From Puniceicoccaceae bacterium MED-G32 (GTDB taxonomy: Bacteria; Verrucomicrobiota; Verrucomicrobiia; Opitutales; Coraliomargaritaceae), in assembly GCA_002457235.1 (NCBI GenBank), contig NTJV01000006.1, positions 1 to 33,082 of the forward strand: a DNA stretch of 33,082 bases, written 5' to 3'. The notes beneath the pieces were generated by a model. It worked only from the letters and a program-made list of their open reading frames with translations, was not told where the DNA came from and made no database searches. Every line of letters starts with the position of its first letter. Positions within the stretch are counted from its first letter, which is position 1. The position numbers and the translations under genes were made by a program. This document shows, one piece after another, positions 625 to 33,082 of the stretch.

Positions 625-2244
625 ATGAAATTCACTTTTTTCCTCATCATTCCATTGCTTATCAGTCTTTTCATAAGCTTGGCGTGTACTCCGGCTCAAA
701 CAAATGTTGAACGAGGAATTTCTGAGCAAGTACTATATATTGGTATTGGCACTGAGCCTGAGGGGCTAGACCCCCACTTGGTATCTGGGGTGACTGAGCA
801 TTATGTCCTACTCTCACTCTTTGAAGGCTTGACGACTGTTGATCCGAAGACACTTGAAATCTTACCGGGTGTGGCGAAATCTTGGACAATCTCTGACGAT
901 GGCTTAGTCTATACCTTTCACTTAGATTCAGAGGCACTTTGGTCTAATGGTGATTCTGTCTCTGCCCATGATTTCACCTTTTCTTATGAACGTATCCTTT
1001 CACCGAAACTGGGAGCTCCTTATGCGTATATGCTTTATCCGATCAAAGGTGCAGAGGACTTTCATAAAGGACAGACCGATTCTTTTTCTGAGGTTGGAGT
1101 CAAAGCCATCAATGCAGAGACATTAGAAATACAATTACACTCGGTGACCCCTTATTTCCTTTCTTTGCCCACACATTTTACTTGGTGGCCAGTACACCCG
1201 CCGACCATTCTTAAGCATGGTTCAATGGTGGATCGAATATCGAAATGGACACAGCCAAAAAACTTTGTGGGCAATGGACCTTTCGCTTTAAAGACATGGC
1301 GTTTAAATAATGGAATCAGCGTGGTGCGAAATCCTTTTTATCGAGAAGCAGACATACTTAAACTGAATGGGATTGAATTTTTGCCGATCAATTTGGAAAC
1401 GGAGGAGCGTGCTTTTCGTGCAGGGCAAATTCATCTTACTTCGGGCGTACCGACTGCCCGTATTGATTGGTATCGCAAGCATCGTCCAGAAAACATCCGC
1501 TTTGATCCCTATCTTGGTGTGTATTATTATTTAGTGAATACGGAAAAACCTCCGCTCTCAGATAAGCGTGTGCGTCAGGCTTTAGCCTATGCCATCAATC
1601 GAGAGAGCTTGACTCAATATGTTTTAAAAGGCGGACAAAAGCCTGCCTATCATTTCACCCCTCCAAACACTGGAGGCTTCTCCGCAGAAAAGAACTTCTC
1701 CTATGATCCAGAAAAAGCACGGGCTCTACTCGCCGAAGCTGGATTCCCAAAGGGGAAAAATTTTCCCGAAATTGAATTACTTTATAATACATCCGAGTCA
1801 CATAAAATTGTTGCCGAGGCGATTCAGCAAATGTGGAAACAAGAACTAGGAATCACGATACGTTTACACAATCAAGAATGGAAGGTGTATTTGGACTCTC
1901 GGCAAAAAGGGGATTTCGATATCGTACGTGCGGCTTGGATCGGTGATTATTTAGACCCCTATACATTCCTCGGACTCGGCATTTCAGACTCAGGGAATAA
2001 TCATAGCGGATGGAGAGACATTGCGTTTGATCAACTGCTTACAGAAACCACACAAACCTTGGAGAGCGATAAACGCTTTGAGCTGTTTCAAAAAGCGGAA
2101 GATCGTTTAATTGAAGCGATGCCCTTCATCCCAATTTACTTTTATGTTCGTAGTCTACTTATCGATCGTTCCGTGGACGGATGGTACTCAAACATTCTCG
2201 ACTATCATCCCTATCAATTTATTTCCCTAACAGAGAAGGATTAA
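625..2244 (+). CDS. oppA: Oligopeptide ABC transporter substrate-binding lipoprotein (SBP family 5)
   Basis: This 539-residue protein would capture peptides in the periplasm and deliver them to the permease encoded just downstream. The N-terminus is a lipoprotein-type signal: a basic start, a hydrophobic stretch and Cys21 after Ser-Leu-Ala. The box is not ideal because position -3 is Ser. The mature part shows the SBP_bac_5 layout: an early Gly-Leu-Asp-Pro-His segment at about 45, then a VAKSWTISDDGLVYTFHL block followed by W-S-N-G-D and the DFTFSYERIL block. The late region matches peptide/nickel-binding proteins, with a DKRVRQALAYAINRE motif. Length is normal for OppA (about 540). The ATG at 625 is the only start that gives a signal peptide. 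It heads a tight operon with two permease genes; the stop is 7 bases before the next start. Substrate specificity cannot be read from sequence. Confidence 0.9.
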   Translation: MKFTFFLIIPLLISLFISLACTPAQTNVERGISEQVLYIGIGTEPEGLDPHLVSGVTEHYVLLSLFEGLTTVDPKTLEILPGVAKSWTISDDGLVYTFHLDSEALWSNGDSVSAHDFTFSYERILSPKLGAPYAYMLYPIKGAEDFHKGQTDSFSEVGVKAINAETLEIQLHSVTPYFLSLPTHFTWWPVHPPTILKHGSMVDRISKWTQPKNFVGNGPFALKTWRLNNGISVVRNPFYREADILKLNGIEFLPINLETEERAFRAGQIHLTSGVPTARIDWYRKHRPENIRFDPYLGVYYYLVNTEKPPLSDKRVRQALAYAINRESLTQYVLKGGQKPAYHFTPPNTGGFSAEKNFSYDPEKARALLAEAGFPKGKNFPEIELLYNTSESHKIVAEAIQQMWKQELGITIRLHNQEWKVYLDSRQKGDFDIVRAAWIGDYLDPYTFLGLGISDSGNNHSGWRDIAFDQLLTETTQTLESDKRFELFQKAEDRLIEAMPFIPIYFYVRSLLIDRSVDGWYSNILDYHPYQFISLTEKD

Positions 2245-2251
2245 TTTTTCA

Positions 2252-3169
2252 GTGTTTCAATTAAGCATCAGACGACTCCTACAAGCAATTCCAACCCTTT
2301 GGATTATTGCAACGCTGACCTTTATTCTGATGCAGCTGACTCCAGGCGGGCCCTTCGACCAAGAGAAACCTGTAACTCCTGAAATTAAAAAATTAATTGA
2401 AGCACATTACGGCATGGATAAACCGATCCATGAGCAATATATACAATTTATCGTGAAGCGCCTACAAGGTGATTTTGGCCCGTCCTATAAATATGCTGGA
2501 TGGGATGTGGATGAAATTATCGCACAAGCATTTCCAGTTTCACTGGAGCTTGGTTTGTATGCATTGATCATTGCTATCTGTATCGGTGTGCCTCTTGGCA
2601 TTCTGTCCGCACTGTTTCATAAAAAGCCGATGGAGATTGTCTTTATGAGTCTTGCTCTGATCGGTATTTGCTTACCCGCATTTGTTTTAGGACCGCTTTT
2701 ATTATTGGTCTTTTCAACAGAGTTAGGTTGGTTCAATCCCTTTGGTTGGAATTCATTCAGCGACCGTATCTTACCCGCTTTGACCTTGGGCTTATTCTAT
2801 GCCTCCTTTATTGCCCGGCTCACTCGTAGTGGCACTTTAGATGTTTTAAAACACCCGTATATTCAGACCGCACGAGCAAAGGGGCTGTCCTCGATACGGA
2901 TTCTCTTTGTCCATACATTGCGTTCTGCACTCAGTCCAGTGGTGGCTTATTTAGGTCCTGCAGTGGCGGGAATGATTTCTGGCTCATTTGTTGTTGAAAC
3001 TTTATTTTTTATACCCGGCTTAGGGAGCTTCTTTGTTAATTCGGCCTTCAATAGAGATGATACGATGGTCATGGGTACGGTACTTTTTTATGCCGCTCTG
3101 ATTATCCTCTTCAACCTCGTTGTTGATTTAATCCAAATTTGGATGAACCCAAAATTAAATCGTGATTAA
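2252..3169 (+). CDS. oppB: Oligopeptide ABC transporter permease, OppB type
   Basis: A 305-residue inner-membrane permease, one half of the translocation channel. It starts at GTG (2252), preceded by GAGAAGGA at 2233-2240, one of the few good Shine-Dalgarno sites in this window, which supports this start. TM1 covers about residues 9-29 and is followed by the OppB-type LTPGGPFD motif. Further membrane segments lie at about 98-120, 130-155, 172-190, 227-250 and 275-295. The EAA loop that contacts the ATPase lies at about 199-225 (HPYIQTARAKGL). Length is standard for OppB (306 in E. coli). It is coupled to the next gene by a short overlap. No ATPase gene follows in this operon. Confidence 0.92.
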   Translation: MFQLSIRRLLQAIPTLWIIATLTFILMQLTPGGPFDQEKPVTPEIKKLIEAHYGMDKPIHEQYIQFIVKRLQGDFGPSYKYAGWDVDEIIAQAFPVSLELGLYALIIAICIGVPLGILSALFHKKPMEIVFMSLALIGICLPAFVLGPLLLLVFSTELGWFNPFGWNSFSDRILPALTLGLFYASFIARLTRSGTLDVLKHPYIQTARAKGLSSIRILFVHTLRSALSPVVAYLGPAVAGMISGSFVVETLFFIPGLGSFFVNSAFNRDDTMVMGTVLFYAALIILFNLVVDLIQIWMNPKLNRD

Positions 3170-4040
3170 TTCAAAAACAGAAAAAATGCATCTTTCAAGG
3201 AGCGCAGGTAGCGAACAAACCAAGCTATGGGAAACGCTCTACAGGTCTACGAATGCACTGATTGGATTTGCCCTCTTTTTTACCATCACGCTTGCCTGCT
3301 TCATTGGACCATTTTTTGTGCCTCACTCTTACGAGACAACCCAACTTTCCCTCGGTGCGAGTGCCCCTTCCTCTCAACATCTATTTGGCACAGATGTTCT
3401 AGGACGTGATTTACTGATACGCACTTTAATCGGGGGACAAATATCGATCTTTGTCGGCTTTTTAGCCACGATTATCGCCTTAATCATAGGGACTGCTTAT
3501 GGAATGGTTGCTGGTTACGTTGGCAAAAAAACTGATGCACTGATGATGCGATTTGTCGATACACTGTATGCCCTACCGTTCACTATTATGGTGATTCTAC
3601 TGACAGTATTATTTGGCCGTAGTTTAGTTTTAATTTTTCTCGCCATCGGTGCAGTGGAATGGTTGACCTTAGCTAGAATTGTTCGTGGAGAAACTCGAAA
3701 TATCAAAACACAAGCTTATGTACAAGCGGCACAATTGAATGGACTGCCCCACCACCAAATTATTTCAAAGCACATCCTTCGAAATTTAATCAGCCCCGTG
3801 ATTGTCTTTGCTACTTTGACTATTCCATCGGTGATTCTTTTAGAATCAGTGATCAGTTTTTTAGGATTAGGCGTTCAGGCCCCACTGGCTTCTTGGGGTA
3901 GCTTAATTAATGAAGGTGCACAAAAATTTGATGTCTATCCGTGGCTTCTGATCTTTCCATCCATTTTCTTCTCTATGACAATTTTATCACTCAATTTTAT
4001 TGGTGATGCCTTTAGAGATGCCTTTGACCCTATCTTATAA
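3162..4040 (+). CDS. oppC: Oligopeptide ABC transporter permease, OppC type
   Basis: A 292-residue permease, partner of the preceding OppB. It shows an N-terminal cytosolic extension, TM1 at about 33-53, the GTDVLGRD motif at 77-83 typical of OppC/DppC, and an EAA loop at about 186-212 (VQAAQLNGLPHHQ). The last membrane segments carry the usual SFLGLGVQAPLASWG signature. The GTG at 3162 overlaps the oppB stop by 8 bases, suggesting translational coupling; an ATG at 3186 is an alternative. It ends only 23 bases from the stop of the convergent ATPase gene, with no clear terminator between, so the two transcripts probably run into each other. Confidence 0.92.
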   Translation: MINSKTEKMHLSRSAGSEQTKLWETLYRSTNALIGFALFFTITLACFIGPFFVPHSYETTQLSLGASAPSSQHLFGTDVLGRDLLIRTLIGGQISIFVGFLATIIALIIGTAYGMVAGYVGKKTDALMMRFVDTLYALPFTIMVILLTVLFGRSLVLIFLAIGAVEWLTLARIVRGETRNIKTQAYVQAAQLNGLPHHQIISKHILRNLISPVIVFATLTIPSVILLESVISFLGLGVQAPLASWGSLINEGAQKFDVYPWLLIFPSIFFSMTILSLNFIGDAFRDAFDPIL

Positions 4041-4063: not shown

Positions 4064-4900
4064 TTATTGGTCGAATGTATCGCTAATTGTAGTGAGACGT
4101 TCTCTGCTATCGCCCAACTTAGGGATACAAGTAATCAAGGCTTTGGTATAAGGATGTTGAGGGTTCGACAAAACGGTTTCTACGCTTCCTGATTCCACAA
4201 TATCGCCTCGGTACATAACTAGAACACGATCGGCAAACCCTTTAACAATTCCAAAATTATGGGTGATTAATAAAATACTCATTCCTAATTGATTGCGCAG
4301 CTTTCTTAGCAAATCTAGAATCTGTGCTTGGATAGTTACATCCAGCGCAGTTGTCGGTTCATCTGCCACCAATAATTTGGGTTCGCAAGCCAATGCCATA
4401 GCTATAACGACACGTTGCTGCATCCCACCACTCAATTCATGCGGATATGATCGATAACGATGCTGTGCCTCTCGAATCCCTACGAGTTCTAAAAGCTCGA
4501 TTACTCGTCCTTCGACATCACTGATATCAGGACGGTGCAACCGCACCGCTTCCGCAATTTGAAAACCAATCGAGAAAACCGGGTTTAAAGAGGCTGAAGG
4601 TTCTTGAAAGATGTAGGCAATGCCTCCACCACGAATTTTTCGCAAAGCAGAATCCTCTAATTTTAAAACATCATCACCATCAAAAATAATTGAACCAGAA
4701 ACAGAGCAATTCGCATCCGTTGGGAGTAATCGAGTCAGAGCCAAGCAACTGACACTTTTTCCGCTTCCGCTTTCCCCAAGAATCGCAACGGTTTCTCCCC
4801 CTGCTTCAATGTCGAAATCAATCCCATGCACCACTTCATTAATCTGATCACCCGAACCAAATCCTATCTTCAATTGCTCAACTGTTAATAATTTCGACAT
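4064..4900 (-). CDS. oppD: Peptide ABC transporter ATP-binding protein, OppD/DppD type, short C-terminus
   Basis: This cytosolic ATPase would power peptide uptake. All nucleotide-binding motifs are intact: Walker A GESGSGKS (42-49), Q-loop Gln99, signature LSGGMQQR (156-163), Walker B LLVADEP (176-182) and switch His214. The family C-terminal extension starts normally ([14 protein letters not shown] at about 249) but stops at residue 278. OppD/DppD proteins usually run to about 330 and carry a cysteine-rich segment; here that segment is absent. The same frame after the stop shows no sign of it. It is the third gene of the leftward operon, 31 bases after the fused permease. No OppF-type second ATPase is in the window, so a homodimer or a partner encoded elsewhere is inferred. 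Confidence 0.92.
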
Positions 4901-4931
4901 AATTAAAAAAATACCCGTTTAGCTTAAATAA

Positions 4932-7235
4932 TCAAAGCTTCATCTTCGGATCAACAATATCTCGAAGCACATCCCCTAAAACATTGTAAGCCACGACCGT
5001 GACAAAGATTGCCACTCCAGGCAATAGCATCCACCAAAAATTCATAAAAAATACAATCATATTGCCCTGTGATTGTTTAAGCATCAATCCCCATGAAGCT
5101 GAAGGTTCTGAGATTCCCAATCCGAGAAATGAGAGTGCGGCTTCTGCTAATATATAACCAGGAATCGAAAGAGTTGCCGCGACCAATAAATAACTAGCAA
5201 TATTCGGCAAAATATGACGCACCAATATCAACCATACCGGGACACCAAAACTTTCTGCCGCTTGTACGAACGGTCTTTTGCGAAGGGATAAAGTCATGCC
5301 TCGAATAATCCGAGCGGTGCCCGCCCAGCCAATCACCGATAAAATAACCACAATAATCGTATACACTTGAACCGGCGAAAGCTCAGGTTGCATGAAGGCA
5401 GAACGCAACGCTAACAATAAATACAGACCCGGTATCGACATTAATAATTCGACCAGTCGCATCGCCGAGAAGTCCACCCAACCCCCATAATAGCCTGCTA
5501 TTGCACCTACAATGAAGCCTAGTACCAGCGTAATTGAAATACCAATCAATCCAATCGATAGAGAAATTTGAGAGCCATATAAAAGCCGACTGAATATATC
5601 ACGTCCCGTAGAATCAGAGCCTAATAAATACAATCGGTCGTTTTCGTTTCCCGATTCTAATTGAAGAAACTTATGGTCCATAGGAATGAAACCAAATAAT
5701 TGATATGGTTCTGATTTGGTAAAAAATTGAAGCTGTGCGGTTTCACCTGTCGCTTGATATTGAGCCGCCCCTACTTGCACTCTTTCCATCAAACTCACTT
5801 CAAAATGCCCATCCACAAATTGAATTTGTGAAGGTGGATGATAAGGAAAACTGAGGTTTTGCTCAGAGACCGAATACGGAGCAAAAAAGGAAGCAAAGCC
5901 TGAGAGAAAATAGAGAATTATTAAAATCGAAAAGGCAATTGCTCCAGAGGCCCGTTTAAAAATTGGAATCAATAAACGCTTCGCCATAATAAACATGAGA
6001 TAGCCCACCATGGCGATACACGCCAAGGCAACCAAAGCAACTATGAGCAGACCGACCCATTTTAAACATTGGGCAATTACAAACAACCCTGATGGGAAAT
6101 AAGACTCTAATAAAATTTCTCCGCCGATCAGACCAAAGAGAATTAAAAATAACCATCGACTATAATTCGTATTTTTCTTCCTAGAGTTGGATTGTTCCGA
6201 TTCGACTCGGATACGAGGGTCTACCCAACCGAGTAATAAGTCGGCTAATAGATTACCAAAAACCAGCAAGGTCACACCTACCAATACACCTGCCATAACT
6301 ACATATTGGTCTTCCCTTATCAACGCATCATAAATCAACTGCCCTAAGCCCGGATAGTTCATTACATTTTCTACCAATAAAGCACCCGATAACAAACTGG
6401 CAAAGGCATAGCCCAATGAAGTGATCAAAGGATTGATCGCATTACGAAACACATGCACAAACATTATGATACCTTCTCGTAACCCTTTAGCTCGTGCCGT
6501 TGTTACAAACTCTGCTCGCATACTGTCGATGAAATTGGCACGCATAATTCGCATAGTACCGGCAATGCCCCCGATGCCTAATACAATTGTCGGTAAAATC
6601 AAATGATGCAAATAATCGAGAAACTGTAAGCCCAGAGGCAAAAATTCACTTTCGATAGAGGATCGACCACCCTCAGGAAATAAACCAGTAACCGCGGCAA
6701 AATAAACCGCTAAAATCGCGAGAAAAAATTCAGGGATAGACAGTGCGGCATACGCAAAAAAAGCGGATATTCGATCAAAGATTGAATCTTTATACATGGC
6801 AGCTAAAATCCCCAAAGGAATTGCAATAATCCAAGCGAAGAGAATTGAACATAAAGAAAGAATAAATGTAGCAGGCACACGTTGCTTTAATAAATCAAAT
6901 ACCTCGACTTTGTAAGTCCATGATTCTCCGAAATATGGACTGCCAAAGAAGAGTCCTTTGTCAGGTTCACCCACCCATGGCCCGTATTTAAGTGGCGATA
7001 CATTTGCCAACCAATGTCCATACTGAACAAACCATGGCGTTGGATTTCCTGCTGCATCTACCAAGCCTAATTGATGCTCCATCTGCTCAATAAAGCTAGG
7101 GTCTATATCCTTTGCCGCTCGTGCTTGTGTTAAAAAGTCGCCCGGAGATAAATACATTAAAAGTGAAACGAGCAAACTCACTCCAAATAATAATGGAATT
7201 ATTGTGCATAAACGCCTGAAAATAAATCGCCACAT
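4932..7235 (-). CDS. Fused peptide ABC transporter permease (OppB-like + OppC-like in one chain)
   Basis: A 767-residue protein containing both permease halves. Residues 1-340 are an OppB-type half: TM1 at about 10-28, LSPGDF after it, a periplasmic segment to about residue 115, and an EAA loop VTTARAKGLREG. A linker at about 345-430 has two predicted membrane segments, an even number that keeps the second half in the correct topology. The OppC-type half begins at about 430 (ILIILYFLSGFASFFAPYS), has a periplasmic insertion of about 90 residues, then LLGSDSTGRDIFSRLL, and a second EAA loop VQAAESFGVPVW. It ends with the usual SFLGLGISEPSASWG block. The reading frame is unbroken, so this is a real fusion and not two adjacent genes. 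It lies between the binding lipoprotein and the ATPase. The YejB/YejE branch seems the nearest relative, judged from the insertion; this is inference. Confidence 0.9.
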   Translation of the reverse strand: MWRFIFRRLCTIIPLLFGVSLLVSLLMYLSPGDFLTQARAAKDIDPSFIEQMEHQLGLVDAAGNPTPWFVQYGHWLANVSPLKYGPWVGEPDKGLFFGSPYFGESWTYKVEVFDLLKQRVPATFILSLCSILFAWIIAIPLGILAAMYKDSIFDRISAFFAYAALSIPEFFLAILAVYFAAVTGLFPEGGRSSIESEFLPLGLQFLDYLHHLILPTIVLGIGGIAGTMRIMRANFIDSMRAEFVTTARAKGLREGIIMFVHVFRNAINPLITSLGYAFASLLSGALLVENVMNYPGLGQLIYDALIREDQYVVMAGVLVGVTLLVFGNLLADLLLGWVDPRIRVESEQSNSRKKNTNYSRWLFLILFGLIGGEILLESYFPSGLFVIAQCLKWVGLLIVALVALACIAMVGYLMFIMAKRLLIPIFKRASGAIAFSILIILYFLSGFASFFAPYSVSEQNLSFPYHPPSQIQFVDGHFEVSLMERVQVGAAQYQATGETAQLQFFTKSEPYQLFGFIPMDHKFLQLESGNENDRLYLLGSDSTGRDIFSRLLYGSQISLSIGLIGISITLVLGFIVGAIAGYYGGWVDFSAMRLVELLMSIPGLYLLLALRSAFMQPELSPVQVYTIIVVILSVIGWAGTARIIRGMTLSLRKRPFVQAAESFGVPVWLILVRHILPNIASYLLVAATLSIPGYILAEAALSFLGLGISEPSASWGLMLKQSQGNMIVFFMNFWWMLLPGVAIFVTVVAYNVLGDVLRDIVDPKMKL

Positions 7236-7264
7236 AGTTAATTTTGATTAATCTTAATCCGTGC

Positions 7265-9094
7265 TTACGGCTGCCCATCTCCTTCCCAAATTTCATCAAT
7301 ATTCCAAAGAATTGTACCTGATTTAGGTATATAAACATTCATCCATTTGTCTTTAATGCCGACATAACTGTAAGGCGAATAGCCAAATAGCAAAGGTAGC
7401 TCATCGGATAATATCGCCTGCACCTCGTGCATGTAAGCAATTCGTTGTTTACGATCTAAAGTTTGTTCCTGAAGTTTGATTAAAGTATCGATTCTCGCTT
7501 CCCATTCTGTCGCTGGTGATTTTTGATTTGGATACCACATGTGATACTTACCACTACTCAAATAAAGTGCCTTACTCCCAGAAGGATCATATGCAGCACT
7601 GGAAGACCCCCAACCCAAGATGGTCATATCATAATCAAAAGTGTTATCCGTACGCTTGAGCAGTGTCGCAAAGTCTGCACGCTCTAAGCGAACCTCAATT
7701 CCTAGATCTTTCATGTTTTCAACAAAAGTAATACCGATTTGGTCGTAATTCGCACTTTCAACGAGTAGTAGATTAAAAGAGACACGATTGCCTGACCCAT
7801 CGAATAATTGCCCTTCGCTATTCCAAGTGAAGCCAATGGATTGCAATAGTTCACGAGCTCTTTCTGGTGAGTACGCATATTTTGTAACATTTGGATTATG
7901 CCACTCACCTTGTGCAGGCGGTATGATTGAGTGCAATGGTTCCCCTTTTCCAAACAAAACTGCATCAATAATTCCTTTTCGATTGAAGCCGTGTAAAATG
8001 GCTTTCCGAAAATGCTTATCGCTAAACCAAGCAAATTTGTACGGTTCGATATAAGGGACTCCATCCTCTGAAGATTCGGGATTTAGGTTAAACCAAAAAA
8101 AGTTTACGCTAGAAGATGGGCCACGATTACTAATAGAAAAATCATAAATATCTGCTGCTTTTTTCACCCACTCATAATCGTCAGCACCAACGCCGGATGC
8201 ATCGCTCTTACCCGTAGCAAAATGGGCAATGGCTGTATTCGCTTCAGAGACAAATTTTATCACTAAATAATCCAAATAAGGTAATCGTTGCCCTGAACTA
8301 TCTGCACGCCAGTAATGAGGGTTTGGCTCTAGCACTATTCGCTCTCCTGGCTTGTATGAAAAAATCTTAAAAGGACCTAGTCCGACAATTTCTTCGGGAG
8401 TTTCGATTGCTGTTTGCGTTGTCCACTCTTTCATAAACGACCCTGAATTGAACGCATCGCCTAAAATATGTTTGGGTAAAATTGCTAGCCCGATATCATA
8501 CAAAAAAGGTGCATAAGTCGTGGGTAGATCAAACCGTATCGTATGGGCATCGATTAGTGTATATCGAATCGGCGTACCATCTATGTGCAGTTGTTGATAA
8601 TAACGAGATGGATAACGAGGCCGTTTGTCTCCGGTTGCTTCATCGATAATTTCCGATAAGATACAATCAAAAGTAAAGATCACATCTTCAGCGGTGAAGG
8701 GTTGACCATCACTCCAAAGCAAACCTTTTCGCAGATTAAAAGTATAGGTTAGACCATCCTCACTGACGATCCATGATTCAGCCAATGCCGGTTCAAATAA
8801 CTCAGTCTTTGGATTAAACTCCACTAAGTTACTGAGAAGGCGCGATAAAACCATACTCGTACTTAGGTTGTTAGGGACGAGCGGATTAAAAGTGGTTGGC
8901 TGGGTCGTCTCATTCAAAATAAAAATCCCGCCATAGCGGCCAGATTCACACTCAGAGATATCGACTCCTTCGGGTAAAGGGTGATGCGTTCTCTCATAAT
9001 TGATCGCCCGTTCACAGCCCAAGTTCAATAGGCTCAAAAGCAGAACTGAAGAAAGTGTTATAGACTGAATATACTGTGAGAAAAACAAAGGCAT
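7265..9094 (-). CDS. Peptide ABC transporter substrate-binding lipoprotein (SBP family 5), second copy
   Basis: A 609-residue periplasmic binding protein, first gene of the leftward transport operon. The signal peptide ends at Cys27 after Asn-Leu-Gly, a lipobox-like site that is imperfect at position -3. The mature protein carries SBP_bac_5 landmarks: GGIFILNETTQPTTFNPL near the start, LAESWIVSEDGLTYTFNLRK, WSDGQPFTAEDVIFTFD, and later RKAILHGFNRKGI. It is 70 residues longer than the first binding protein and clearly diverged from it, so the two probably recognise different peptides. Length and blocks resemble the larger YejA/AppA-like members. The start ATG is at 9094; the gene is divergent from lexA. 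The stop lies 29 bases before the fused permease. Confidence 0.9.
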   Translation of the reverse strand: MPLFFSQYIQSITLSSVLLLSLLNLGCERAINYERTHHPLPEGVDISECESGRYGGIFILNETTQPTTFNPLVPNNLSTSMVLSRLLSNLVEFNPKTELFEPALAESWIVSEDGLTYTFNLRKGLLWSDGQPFTAEDVIFTFDCILSEIIDEATGDKRPRYPSRYYQQLHIDGTPIRYTLIDAHTIRFDLPTTYAPFLYDIGLAILPKHILGDAFNSGSFMKEWTTQTAIETPEEIVGLGPFKIFSYKPGERIVLEPNPHYWRADSSGQRLPYLDYLVIKFVSEANTAIAHFATGKSDASGVGADDYEWVKKAADIYDFSISNRGPSSSVNFFWFNLNPESSEDGVPYIEPYKFAWFSDKHFRKAILHGFNRKGIIDAVLFGKGEPLHSIIPPAQGEWHNPNVTKYAYSPERARELLQSIGFTWNSEGQLFDGSGNRVSFNLLLVESANYDQIGITFVENMKDLGIEVRLERADFATLLKRTDNTFDYDMTILGWGSSSAAYDPSGSKALYLSSGKYHMWYPNQKSPATEWEARIDTLIKLQEQTLDRKQRIAYMHEVQAILSDELPLLFGYSPYSYVGIKDKWMNVYIPKSGTILWNIDEIWEGDGQP

Positions 9095-9129: not shown

Positions 9130-9195
9130 TTGACAACGTTAAATTGAATATTGACAAATGCACAACTGTTCACCTATTCATATGTACACTATGAA
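9130..9195 (+). promoter_or_regulatory. Probable lexA promoter/operator region
   Basis: Two TTGACAA heptamers in direct orientation start 21 bases apart (9130 and 9151), each matching a consensus -35 box. Downstream is a perfect dyad TTCATA-N7-TATGAA (9177-9195) that overlaps the ATG at 9191 and contains the self-complementary core TGTACA. LexA proteins normally repress their own gene through a dyad, so this is a candidate operator. A weak -10 (TATTCA, 9175-9180) would fit the second -35 with an 18-base spacer and give a nearly leaderless mRNA. Only the repeats are seen directly; their roles are inferred. Confidence 0.4.
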
Positions 9196-9847
9196 AGAAT
9201 TGACGACTCGACAGATAGAAATATTGGATTTTATCACCAACTATGAATGGAGACATGGCTTTTGGCCGAGCATTCGTAATATTCAAATGGAGTTTGACTA
9301 CAAAAGCACCAATGCAGTGATGGGTCACCTGCGGGCTCTTGAAAGAAAAGGAGCGATTGAGCGAATCCCCGGACAAGCTCGAACCTTTAGAATCAACCGC
9401 CCTGACAGCCCACAGGCCAACTTTGAATCTGAGATTCCCGACAATGCAAGTGAAGTTGTTGAGATCCCTGTGTACGGAGCAATTGCTGCGGGTTATCCCG
9501 ATCGCGTTGAGTCTTCAGGTGCTGTCGGCAGATTACAGGTAGACATTCAAAACGCAGGCTTTACCAATGCCAGTCGAAAGCAGTCCTTTGCCTTGGAAGT
9601 GAGAGGCGACAGCATGGTCGATGCTCAAATTTATGATGGAGATCGCGTGATCATTGAGCCTAGAGAAGCAAGAGATGGCGATATAGTGGCTGCTTTGATT
9701 GATGGTGAAGTGACCTTGAAACGATTAATTCAAAAAGCGGGTGAACCCCCCTATTTGAAAGCAGAAAATAAAAACTATCCTGAGTTGCACCCTTCAGATC
9801 AATTAGAGATTCAAGGTGTGGCCAAGGCAGTCGTTAGAGCACTTTAA
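9191..9847 (+). CDS. lexA: LexA repressor
   Basis: SOS-response repressor that cleaves itself when activated by RecA. The N-terminal winged-helix domain begins with the family pattern KELTTRQIEILDFI. A linker leads to the autopeptidase domain. The cleavage bond is Ala100-Gly101 in VYGAIAAGYP, the nucleophile is Ser141 in RGDSMVD, and the base is Lys177 in VTLKRL (numbered from the ATG at 9191). At 218 residues it is close to the usual 200-220. An in-frame ATG at 9158 would add 11 residues, but the family normally starts right before KxLTxRQ, and the candidate promoter overlaps that extension. The gene is single-cistron-like, followed 37 bases later by a glyoxalase-family gene. Its operator may be the dyad at 9177-9195. 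Confidence 0.93.
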   Translation: MKELTTRQIEILDFITNYEWRHGFWPSIRNIQMEFDYKSTNAVMGHLRALERKGAIERIPGQARTFRINRPDSPQANFESEIPDNASEVVEIPVYGAIAAGYPDRVESSGAVGRLQVDIQNAGFTNASRKQSFALEVRGDSMVDAQIYDGDRVIIEPREARDGDIVAALIDGEVTLKRLIQKAGEPPYLKAENKNYPELHPSDQLEIQGVAKAVVRAL

Positions 9848-9884
9848 GTCTTGTACTTATTTATAATACTGTAGGATTAGTCGT

Positions 9885-10271
9885 ATGAAGATTACTTTTG
9901 ATCATACACGTATTCGTGTTTCAAATTTGGAAGCCTCAATTGATTGGTACAAGAAAACCTGTGGCTTTGAAGTTTTAAGACGTACCGACAAATCTCCTTC
10001 AGGTAATGAACTAGCACATTTGAAAATTCCTGATTCAGAACACAAGCTAGAGCTCACTTTCTCTCCTGATTTTAAAGTAGAATTCCCAGAAGATTTGGTG
10101 CATACCTGCATCCGAGTTGATGATATTATTGCCTACTGCGACTATCTTGAATCTTTAGATCTTACCATCGATTTATGGCCATCTAATTGGCGTGAAAAAT
10201 TTGTTGATGGCAAAAAAATGGCTTTTATTACAGACCCTGATGGATATGAGGTCGAAATATTAGAGCACTGA
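9885..10271 (+). CDS. VOC-superfamily protein, glyoxalase I-like (lactoylglutathione lyase family)
   Basis: A 128-residue single-chain protein made of two beta-alpha-beta-beta-beta modules. The four metal-ligand positions of glyoxalase I all seem present: His7 (FDHTRIRV), Glu56 (KLELTF), His73 (VHTCIRV) and Glu124 (DPDGYEVEIL). The length is near that of bacterial GloA (about 135). GloA converts the methylglyoxal-glutathione hemithioacetal to lactoylglutathione in the cytosol. The ligand set makes enzymatic activity plausible, but VOC members are diverse (epimerases, dioxygenases, resistance proteins), so I leave the symbol empty. A weak AGGAT lies upstream of the ATG. It converges with ispF, with 7 bases between the stops. 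Confidence 0.8.
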   Translation: MKITFDHTRIRVSNLEASIDWYKKTCGFEVLRRTDKSPSGNELAHLKIPDSEHKLELTFSPDFKVEFPEDLVHTCIRVDDIIAYCDYLESLDLTIDLWPSNWREKFVDGKKMAFITDPDGYEVEILEH

Positions 10272-22194: not shown

Positions 22195-22627
22195 TTCGAG
22201 AATACTGCTTTATCAATAAACCATATAAGGCTTGAATCCAAGCATTACGATTTGGGTTCCTACTTTGATCCGAGAGCAACTGCTTTAAATAGATACTACT
22301 GGAATTAGGCTTATCCCCTTGCCACCAGTCCAACCATATTGATTCAGTTGACATTAATTTTCCTGCCTCGATTAGAGGTAATATCTCATCAATCATAATA
22401 GTATGAAAACGAGTCTCCCCGACAAAGTTGTGCAAAATATCTGATTGAAAAACCTGTTTTATTTTTCGCATCATTGGACTGCGCTTACGATTATTAATGC
22501 TATTGCCTAATCCTTGATCCTTAAAAAATGCACTATGTTCAAGGATTTGTTTTGGCCAATTGGGTTCTTTTTCCAGCAAGGAAGTATATTGCTTCAATCG
22601 TGTCAGTGGTTGATTTGCCGGTCGGAA
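22070..22627 (-). pseudogene. DUF2851 gene, C-terminal fragment (other frame)
   Basis: In the frame shifted by one base from the upstream part, translation reads FRPANQPLTRLKQYTSLL and continues with WLDWWQGDKPNSSS and other segments expected in the C-terminal half of DUF2851 proteins. It joins residue-for-residue if one T is restored in the GTTTCC run (AAA on the + strand, 22626-22628). There is no ATG for this part; the first possible start is a TTG at 22597, which is an internal Leu in the family. From about 22194 down to the stop at 22070 the frame runs antisense to the highly conserved end of purL. That tail has no family resemblance and may reflect a second loss of the original stop. 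Confidence 0.65.
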
Positions 22628-23385
22628 ACAGACAGCTTCCAGTCTGTTTTGTATTTTTCATATAATACTTCAGCTGACTGATGCCAATTAGCTAAAGGTT
22701 GATGAAGTCCAATATTCGACATAGCTAAACGGTTACGGCTATATCCTAATACTTCTAAAAGCATAACATGACACGCTTCGTCCAAAGAACTATACTCAAG
22801 TCGTTTTTTTGCGAACTTAACTTTTCGTTGAAAGCGAGTTTTTGCTTCAGCATAAAAGAGTGCGATTCTTTCAGCTTCGCTTAGATTTTCTCTTAGATAT
22901 TTAAAATCAAAAAAATTCTTTTTTTCAAAAGTAAGTAGTGCATGTTCAATGGCGTAATTTTCTAAATCCGTATTCAAATAAGGTAACAAAGTAAGCGTTT
23001 CTAAATCTCTTAATGAATTTAAAAAATAGCTTCTATTTAAATCACCACTTGTATGATTTCCTAGTGCCAACACGACATGTAAAATGACTGAATCAAAGGA
23101 GGGATTTATGTGATGGTAATGATAGAACCAATCGATTGGCTCGAAGTGAACTTCCACAGAACCTACAATAGCTTTCCCATCTATTTTGAGTACGGCTTCT
23201 AAAAAGTCGGGTCCTTCATTATCATTCCAGCGACCTGGGTTCAAAATTGATATAGATTTACCTGATAGAGTCCGTAATCCTTTATGATTAAAATCTCCAT
23301 TAAACCAAATATTTTGAAGCACTGATTCAGGTACTGAATAGCTACCATACAATCCTTGAATCTCAAAGACTTGCCGATCATTCAC
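22603..23385 (-). pseudogene. DUF2851 family gene, N-terminal fragment (frameshifted)
   Basis: The first 250 codons match the DUF2851 family: residues after the start read GLYGSYSVPESVLQ, then ISILNPGRWNDNEGPDFLEA and VGSVEVHFEPIDWFYH, followed by ILHVVLALGNH. The frame stops at residue 260, far short of the family length of about 420-440. The expected RPAN segment follows immediately in another frame, so one gene has been split by a single-base deletion near 22626-22628, or by a sequencing error there. Restoring one base gives about 438 codons down to 22070. The family has no established function. It is the last gene of the minus-strand cluster starting with maf, 20 bases after the NYN-domain gene. 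Confidence 0.75.
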
Positions 23386-30431: not shown

Positions 30432-32225
30432 ATGAAACACAAAACAAACAAACACATCTCAAAGAATGACACAAAAAGTCAGACAATGAAGGGTGCCGAT
30501 GTTTTAGTCGCCGCTCTTGAAAAAGAAGGTGTGGATGTGGTCTTTGCATACCCAGGTGGTGCTTCTATGGAATTACACCAAGCACTGACAAAGAGTCAAA
30601 AGATTCGCACTATCCTGCCTCGCTTTGAGCAAGGGGGTGGATTCATGGCACATGGTTATTCACGAGCAACTGGAAAACCAGGCGTTTGCATGGCAACCAG
30701 TGGACCTGGTGCTACTAATTTGGTTACCTGTATTGCTGATGCATACATGGACAGTATTCCTTTAATCGCAATTACTGGTCAGGTGTACCAACAATTTATC
30801 GGTAAAGCTGCTTTCCAAGAAACCGATTTCTTTGGAATGACTCTACCTATTGTTAAGCATAGTTTTCTTGTTTTAAATAAAGAAGAATTACCTAGAATCG
30901 TAAAAGAAGCTTTTCACATCGCTAATACTGGACGACCTGGACCTGTTGTTATCGACATCCCTAAAGACGTTCAGCAAGCACTCTTCGAGCCTGAGTTCCC
31001 TGAAACAATTGACATTCCTGGCTATAAATCCGATGTGACGCTTCCAGAGGCATCAGACGAAGACTTACTTAAAGTCATAGACTCTATTCAAAATTCAAAA
31101 AAACCCGTCTTCTATACAGGCGGAGGAATTATTTCTGCAGAAGCACATTTGGAACTTCGTGAATTTGCTAAATTAACGGGTATTCCAGTAGCATCGACTC
31201 TTATGGGACTTGGTGCTTTTGACTCAGAAGACCCTCAATCGCTTTACTGGTTTGGCATGCATGGAACTGTTGCAGGAAACTGGGCCGTTTGTGATTGTGA
31301 CTTCTTGCTTTGTTTAGGAGCCCGCTTCGACGACCGAATCACTGGTAAAATAGAAAAATTTGCGACTGAGGCAAAAATCGCTCATATCGATATCGATATC
31401 TCAGAACATAATAAAAATAAGATTGTTGATTTGCCGATCCACTCAGACATCAAATATGCGCTTCGCCGTCTTATTGAATTATGGAAGAAAAATAAATGCA
31501 AACAACCTGACATTTCTGAATGGAATAGTCTGATTCAAGAATGGAAAGCAGAACACCCATTCTCCTACGAGGCTTCCGAACATATTACTCAACAAGAAGC
31601 GATTGAAGCTTTATATCAAGAAACAAAGGGTGATGCGATTATTTCAACAGGTGTAGGGCAGCACCAAATGTGGGCTGCTCAATATTTCCAATTCAGAGAA
31701 CCAAGAACTTATATAAGCTCATTAGGTCTTGGAACTATGGGCTTTGGTCTACCTGCCGCCCTTGGTGCAAAAATTGCTCATCCCGAAAAACTCGTTGTCA
31801 ACATTGATGGCGATGGTTGCTTCTTAATGAATGTTCAAGAGCTAGCCACGGCTAAAATTGAAAAGATCAATGCGAAAACCATAATCATGAACAATCAACA
31901 CTTAGGCATGGTGGTTCAATGGGAAGACTTACTTTATGAAAGTGTACGAGGGCAAACTATCCTATGCGATAAAGATAATATCGGTGGGCCAGATAACCTT
32001 GAGGCGCTCTACCCAGACTTTGTAAAAATCAGTGAAGGCTTTGGAGTTAAAGCAAGACGTGTTTCGAAAAAAGAAGAACTCAGAGAAGCTATCCAAGAAA
32101 TGATTACTCATGATGGTCCATATGTTCTAGAAGTCATCGTACCTTACACAGAACACGTGTTGCCAATGATCAAACAAGGGCTTTCTGCAAAAGAAATTCT
32201 CTTGAAGTCTCCAAATTCAAAGTAG
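30432..32225 (+). CDS. ilvB: Acetolactate synthase, large (catalytic) subunit
   Basis: First common step of branched-chain amino acid synthesis: condenses pyruvate with pyruvate or 2-oxobutyrate using thiamine diphosphate (ThDP). Catalytic Glu66 lies in [17 protein letters not shown]. Then follow [30 protein letters not shown], and the ThDP motif beginning GDG at 460-462 and ending with MNNQHLGM at about 488. Length 597 is slightly above the usual 560-590 because of a Lys-rich N-terminal extension of about 18 residues. An ATG at codon 19 (MKGADVLV) is an alternative start. The small subunit ilvN and ilvC, often adjacent, are not next to it: the following gene is a convergent DNA ligase whose end overlaps by 9 bases. 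Confidence 0.94.
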
Positions 32226-33082
32226 GCTTTTCACCGTTTCTAAAGTATCTGCATCACTCGCGAGCTTATCCTCTCTCCATCGGTGAATCCGTGGAAATCT
32301 TACCGCAATGCCTGACTTATGGCGTTTAGACTCTTGTATGCCTTCAAAAGCAATTTCAAAAACAAGCTCAGCCTGTACTACACGAACGGGTCCATGTTTA
32401 GCTGTTGTGTTTGCTCGAATCCATTTATCCACCCGCTTCATTTCCATATCGCTTAAACCTGAATATGCTTTGCAAAAAGGGACTAATTCCCCGTCTTTCC
32501 AGATTGAAAAAGTGTAATCTGAGAAAACACCTGCTCGTCTCCCATGCCCCTGCTGAGCATAAACCATCACTGCATCTACAGTATATGGCTCAATTTTCCA
32601 CTTCCACCACAGCCCCTTTTTTCTACCTACACTGTAAATTGCTGTTTTCTGCTTAAGCATTAATCCCTCAATGCTTTCTTCTCGAGAATGCGACCGCACC
32701 TCCGCCATTGCCTCCCATCCTCTTGAAGCATCGTAAATAGGCGATAACCGCATCACAGACGTTTCGATGGATGGCAGCCATTTTTCTAAAACATCTCTTC
32801 GCTCGGAGGTACTTTTTGCCCGTAAATCAACACTGTCTATCTCCAGTAAATCATAAGCCATAAAAACCACAGGAATCTCCTCAAGAATTGCTTTACTCAC
32901 TTTTTTTCGTCCTAAACGTTTTTGTAAATCGGCGAAGCTTCGTACCTTGTCGTTTTCAAAATCCCATGCCAATATTTCCCCATCCAAAACAAACGATTGT
33001 TCATCAGGGTAAGCCTTTAAAGCGTCTTCAATCTCTGGAAGTTGTTCATTAAGTAATTGCTCGCCCCTAGACCAAATCACTC
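32217..33082 (-). CDS. ATP-dependent DNA ligase, C-terminal part (5' end beyond window)
   Basis: About 288 codons are visible; the frame is open at the right edge, so the lysine of motif I that takes the AMP is not seen. Visible ligase motifs: IWSRGEQL (motif Ia region, at the edge), LDGEILAW (III), [12 protein letters not shown] (IIIa), [10 protein letters not shown] (IV) and WWKWKIE (V). An OB-fold domain follows, ending in [13 protein letters not shown], which holds the motif VI-like Arg/Trp region. The IWSRGE and FPRIHRWR forms resemble the ligases encoded beside LHR-type helicases and metallo-phosphoesterase/exonuclease genes in many bacteria; that context would lie outside the window. 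It is convergent with ilvB (9-base overlap). Confidence 0.88.

Follow-up and report, generated by a model that had tools for sequence, protein, structure and literature searches.

The closest described systems are peptide importers of the Opp/Dpp type, in which the two permease subunits are separate chains. In PMC12136057, DppB and DppC are described with six transmembrane (TM) helices per subunit and EAA coupling loops, and in DppBCDF each transmembrane domain (TMD) pairs with its own ATPase. Two BPD-type TMDs per chain are found in FbpB of Thermus thermophilus (9j4r_A), with 490 residues for both halves, and in E. coli ThiP, which belong to ferric-ion and thiamin transporters, respectively. 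The ThiP modules extend over residues 1-274 and 285-536, about 10 residues apart (PMC555942), leaving no room for a membrane hairpin. In the Opp system of Borrelia burgdorferi, one OppDF pair serves two permease heterodimers, according to PMC5736914. A keyword search of an open-access library of papers found no description of a natural OppB-OppC fusion.

Here we analyzed a window of 33,082 nucleotides from Puniceicoccaceae bacterium MED-G32 (genome of 671 kb, 70.8% complete) that encodes such a fusion, named BC in this study. Each half of BC matched one chain of E. coli DppBC and OppBC and of M. tuberculosis OppBC and DppBC (8z1w, 8z1y, 8z21, 8j5q, 8wd9) in sequence and fold; unlike these systems, BC is one chain with an extra two-helix hairpin. 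FbpB and ThiP also carry both TMDs on one polypeptide. The analysis confirmed the observation of the initial annotation, a permease fusion with a two-helix linker, and largely supported its interpretation. BC represents a conserved, single-chain version of a known importer and has a regular two-helix tether. It is very probably part of an ordinary peptide-type ABC importer that depends on a solute-binding protein (SBP), with its two TMDs joined covalently by the hairpin.

Organization of the fused gene and its locus

The unbroken 767-codon frame described initially was recovered exactly, on the minus strand (Table 1); the plus strand over 4932-7235 had stops throughout. Pfam matched BPD_transp_1 (PF00528) twice, as had been predicted (E 7.9e-63), and BPD_transp_1_N (PF19300) at residues 1-126 above its cut-off, while OppC_N (PF12911) at 433-468 was sub-cut-off (19.3 vs 23.9 bits). 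The best NCBIfam matches were Opp4C, Opp4B, Opp2B and Opp2C, all below their cut-offs; the equivalog cut-offs of Opp4B and Opp4C were missed with 260.1 of 450 and 273.7 of 350 bits. Among sequences of solved structures, the first half matched DppB/OppB and the second DppC/OppC. A coupling role of both EAA-type loops is presumed by analogy with DppBC (PMC12136057).

Table 1. Features of the fused permease gene and its surroundings (positions in the window).
Feature	Position	Strand	Basis
Fused OppB-OppC permease (BC), 767 aa; ATG at 7235, stop 4932-4934	4932..7235	-	ORF and translation, two BPD_transp_1, AF2 model
OppB-type half, residues 1-345	6201..7235	-	Pfam/NCBIfam, Foldseek, VIA-align
Linker, residues 346-425, two membrane helices, missing in split relatives	5961..6200	-	
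Linker helix 1, residues 352-379	6099..6182	-	AF2 secondary structure
Linker helix 2, residues 381-427	5955..6095	-	AF2 secondary structure
OppC-type half, residues 426-767 and stop	4932..5960	-	Pfam/NCBIfam, VIA-align
OppC periplasmic insertion, residues 466-530 (approx.)	5646..5840	-	Modelled as beta strands
EAA-type loop (putative coupling), OppB half, residues 236-262	6450..6530	-	Motif conserved in 41 fused rows
EAA-type loop (putative coupling), OppC half, residues 650-676	5208..5288	-	Motif conserved in 41 fused rows
Family-5 solute-binding protein SBP2, 609 aa, first operon gene	7265..9094	-	SBP_bac_5, E 3.4e-79
OppD-type ATPase (D) with oligo_HPY tail, last operon gene	4064..4900	-	Pfam
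Convergent oppA-oppB-oppC, separate permeases, no ATPase alongside	625..4040	+	ORFs, Pfam/NCBIfam
lexA and glyoxalase-like gene, beyond the SBP gene	9158-10271	+	Pfam

The large periplasmic insertion noted earlier in the OppC half was present between OppC TM1 and TM2. The alignment of split relatives also extended over it, and it is therefore not part of the fusion.

The BC operon contained a family-5 SBP and an oligo_HPY ATPase, the combination used to recognize Opp/Dpp-type systems. The N-terminus of SBP2 resembles a lipoprotein signal. The neighbouring convergent operon keeps OppB and OppC separate, in agreement with the initial annotation. The order SBP2-BC-D was found in most fused loci reaching far enough. 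Outside the window's genus, many fused loci, among them those of gut Opitutales and Cerasicoccus, showed no D match in the stretch retrieved, and in three of these D sat on another contig; thus, the constant unit is the SBP2-BC pair and not the whole operon.

Two further genes of the window were recorded. An ATP-dependent DNA ligase fragment (DNA_ligase_A_M, A_C; 32217-33080, minus strand) reaches the contig end, and a DUF2851 protein (22603-23385, minus strand) covers only profile positions 1-208 of 375 and is possibly short or split.

Structure model and proposed topology

The AF2 model of BC, calculated from an 81-row alignment (41 fused sequences and 40 split half-chains), had a mean pLDDT of 80.2 and a pTM of 0.80; a model of locus L032 from its single sequence was unusable (pLDDT 41). 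Read by eye, the secondary structure consisted of 6+2+6 long helices, the 14 that had been expected. The pLDDT was 79-88 in the linker beyond residue 360 and lowest at 345-350, right behind the OppB half. The best Foldseek match of the OppB half was DppB (8z1y_A, TMt 0.81). In VIA-align, OppB of M. tuberculosis OppABCD (8j5q_B) aligned with model residues 1-345 (Z 25.5) and DppC (8z1w_B) with residues 415-765 (Z 28.2), so that the modelled halves have the DppB/OppB and the DppC fold. The end of linker helix 2 (from about 415) matched the DppC N-terminal helix, and the hairpin, residues of about 346-414, was not covered by the alignments with the top-scoring DppC and OppB chains. FbpB (9j4r_A) aligned to both halves, over model residues 18-761 (437 residues, Z 19.1, rmsd 4.3), suggesting a rough similarity to this naturally fused permease in the placement of the halves; the listed sequence matches of BC were all Opp/Dpp.

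In the proposed arrangement, BC would supply both membrane subunits, on one polypeptide, of an Opp/Dpp-type type I ABC importer that depends on an SBP. The OppB half, with six helices, would end in the cytoplasm, the hairpin would cross the membrane outward and return, and the OppC half, also with six helices, would begin in the cytoplasm, with both coupling loops facing the ATPases. Lipoprotein-like SBP2 would deliver a peptide-like substrate, import would be driven by the adjacent OppD-type ATPase and an OppF-type partner coded elsewhere, and the covalent tether would set a 1:1 pairing of cognate halves, a control of pairing that may be the benefit of the fusion.

The linker hairpin

The linker between the aligned halves, initially estimated at 80-90 residues with two membrane segments, comprised 80 residues in the window and 75-93 in 50 measured fused sequences, two of which were re-fetches (L136 of L021, L137 of L027). 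Two hydrophobic peaks were present within the linker in all 41 aligned fused rows. On average, these rows had 3.4 K/R before and 3.8 after the hairpin, against 0.6 in the inter-helix loop, and both flanks exceeded the loop in 40 of the 41 rows, the exception being L034. This positive-inside count fits an in-out-in hairpin with both EAA loops cytosolic, in line with the earlier argument that an even number of linker helices keeps the orientation of the second half.

The linker was the fastest-changing part of the protein: its mean identity to the window was 0.28, whereas B and the C core reached 0.71 and 0.75, respectively. Its consensus contained few near-fixed residues. Its dN/dS was 0.06-0.35 in nine of 11 pairs (dS was saturated in the remaining two), and that of the cores 0.01-0.05. 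Judged by these ratios, the linker is under purifying selection that is weaker than on the cores.

An HMM built from 22 marine linkers was run on 28 other fused linkers (two of them re-fetches) and 1516 decoys, which were tiles of the B/C halves and shuffled linkers. Eight of the 28 ranked over every decoy: four members of the Cerasicoccus-type group at E<1e-13 and four other linkers at E 0.0003-0.083. The remaining 20 fell among the decoys. Linker homology across all fused clades was therefore not supported by this HMM, and its ranking does not demonstrate that the hairpin sequences arose once.

When both joined ends are cytoplasmic, a short cytosolic linker should suffice, such as the about 10 residues used by ThiP (PMC555942), and yet every fused linker measured had the two-helix insert. 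The hairpin might on these grounds be a functional accessory domain for docking or sensing, beyond a topological bridge, but its rapid divergence and few near-fixed residues speak against this, and we regard such a role as rather unlikely. Post-synthesis cleavage of BC into separately acting OppB and OppC could be proposed from the low model confidence just behind the OppB half and the fast change of the linker; however, the linker consensus held no conserved cleavage motif, and the linker is under purifying selection and retains its two membrane helices, which makes cleavage improbable. There is a still smaller chance that OppC is additionally made alone from an internal start in the BC gene: of the 41 fused rows, 22 had a Met within aligned residues 400-435, but no Met position there was common to more than 10 of the 41, in a count of Met residues alone.

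Distribution of fused and split forms

A contig scan seeded with BC peptides, one of them from the linker, yielded 78 distinct loci, the counts of which are not a census. By reading frame, 43 were fused and 32 split, and three (L046, L056 and L077) carried the OppB half only and were left unassigned. A stop or frameshift between the halves, named by the initial annotation as contrary evidence, was not seen in the relatives, and a chance open frame was excluded because 43 of the 78 loci keep the frame open across the linker. The nearest contigs bore titles of marine Puniceicoccaceae/Opitutia of the Verrucomicrobiota. The cultured Cerasicoccus arenae and C. maritimus were fused, and C. frondis was split.

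Split SBP-B-C-D-F operons of other Verrucomicrobiota, some from the same family, shared about 52-65% identity with BC in B and C and had the same gene order. Unlike in BC, their oppB and oppC abut or overlap without linker helices. In the examined split loci, the OppC frame opened ahead of the OppB stop, and the OppC match mostly began 19-58 nt past this stop (103 nt in L053; 583 nt in L060, where the C match was partial). No extra helices were found between OppB and OppC in these loci, which ties the hairpin to the fused form.

The fusion was present in 7/7 genomes searched of the window's genus. Among 43 genomes of its family (E<=1e-60), 23 were fused, 18 split, two had neither and none had both; the fused group includes one partial copy that spans the linker (G055) and one genome with two fused copies and 7% contamination (G049). 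A phylum-wide search of 387 genomes at E<=1e-95 gave 23 with a match, nine of them fused according to frame and re-reading, all nine belonging to the same order. At E<=1e-40, both halves occurred in one match in only two of 115 genomes, the window genome and G019. The fusion is rare within the genome samples taken, which agrees with the earlier statement that it is less common than separate genes. An assembly or frameshift artefact joining two genes might be suspected in an incomplete assembly (70.8%), but its probability is negligible given the same fusion in all seven genus genomes, 23 of 43 family genomes and two cultured Cerasicoccus species, and a linker coding for 75 or more residues at low dN/dS; a frameshift was ruled out by these relatives.

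Contigs titled Rhodospirillaceae, Paceibacterota, Desulfonatronospira and Desulfohalobiaceae also carried Verrucomicrobiota-like copies (L009, L079, L045, L047, L048, L050, L052, L055 and L066), by misbinning or transfer.

Phylogeny and probable cassette exchange

A B-C tree without the linker comprised 82 rows, 38 of them split and 44 fused. It required two changes of the fused label, of which the starred branches force only one, and L024, a long branch, stood apart. In a 41-row tree, the 26 fused rows formed one side of a branch with a support of only 48. A single clade of all fused forms was therefore not upheld. Most simply, the fused forms may have had one origin in Opitutales-type Verrucomicrobiota, which these trees support weakly.

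Split members of the window's family together with C. frondis formed a separate clade in the B-C tree (support 99), and the SBP tree (79 rows) agreed with it. The D tree disagreed, with split-permease family members interspersed among fused-permease ones. Forcing the split-permease family members into one clade in the D tree cost 37.9 lnL (p-AU 0.017; 57 of 60 rows), and forcing marine fused and family split forms together in the B-C tree cost 103 lnL (p-AU 8e-5; 41 of 82 rows). According to these trees, SBP, B and C share one history and the operon ATPase has another. This conflict suggests that the SBP-B-C cassette was exchanged as a unit, which is considered likely and not proven because the constraint groups were picked after viewing the trees and the trees were quick ones.

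Five loci (L069, L074, L113, L115 and L116) were compared with window positions 4064-9094, and the identities were 73-75% for D, 39-41% for SBP and 54-60% for B/C. In L069 and L074 the site was flanked by lexA/glyoxalase, as in the window. An in-situ cassette exchange is probable for these five loci.

Probable ATPase sharing and implications

Each of the 11 genomes that were at least 90% complete contained two permease sets and two oligo_HPY ATPases, fused and split alike, with one ATPase of the G009 pair scoring below the cut-off; the count relied on the oligo_HPY tail, and an ATPase without it could be overlooked. In the window genome, at 70.8% completeness, the operon D was the one oligo_HPY match. 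Two permease sets with only two Opp-type ATPases suggest that one D/F pair probably serves both, here BC and the oppABC set, as in the Borrelia Opp system, the permeases of which are separate proteins. Since split genomes also have two permease sets, pairing control alone cannot explain why only some lineages fuse. It is conceivable, if doubtful, that SBP2-BC is an exchangeable module, with fused and split cassettes replacing each other at a single site in the operon, served by a resident ATPase pair that two transporters share, and with a functional hairpin that makes a single-chain permease workable there.

In a natural permease of the Opp/Dpp type with a single chain, the OppB partner of each OppC is predetermined, which makes BC useful for studies of how heterodimeric TMDs pair and of the half to which each ATPase binds. 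That SBP and permease move as a pair while the ATPase remains in place, as suggested by the trees, is a testable proposition about modularity in this class of importer. Because the underlying machine is familiar, the gain is incremental.

Other fusions and insertions in related permeases

A different fusion was observed in other Verrucomicrobiota, with SBP_bac_5 N-terminal and OppB C-terminal in one frame of 1095-1197 aa (L127:3313-6708, plus; L129:4255-7845, minus; L130:7726-11010, plus; L138:2982-6308, plus) and OppC separate where seen. In further genomes of the E<=1e-40 search, several OppB matches lay inside open frames of 1015-1379 aa. In the related family f17, the OppB half carried a long variable insert between the first two TM helices, in frames of 814-906 aa (L133:2941-5424, L134:2683-5124 and L135:2972-5689, all minus), and the insert site coincides with the place of the DppB scoop motif.
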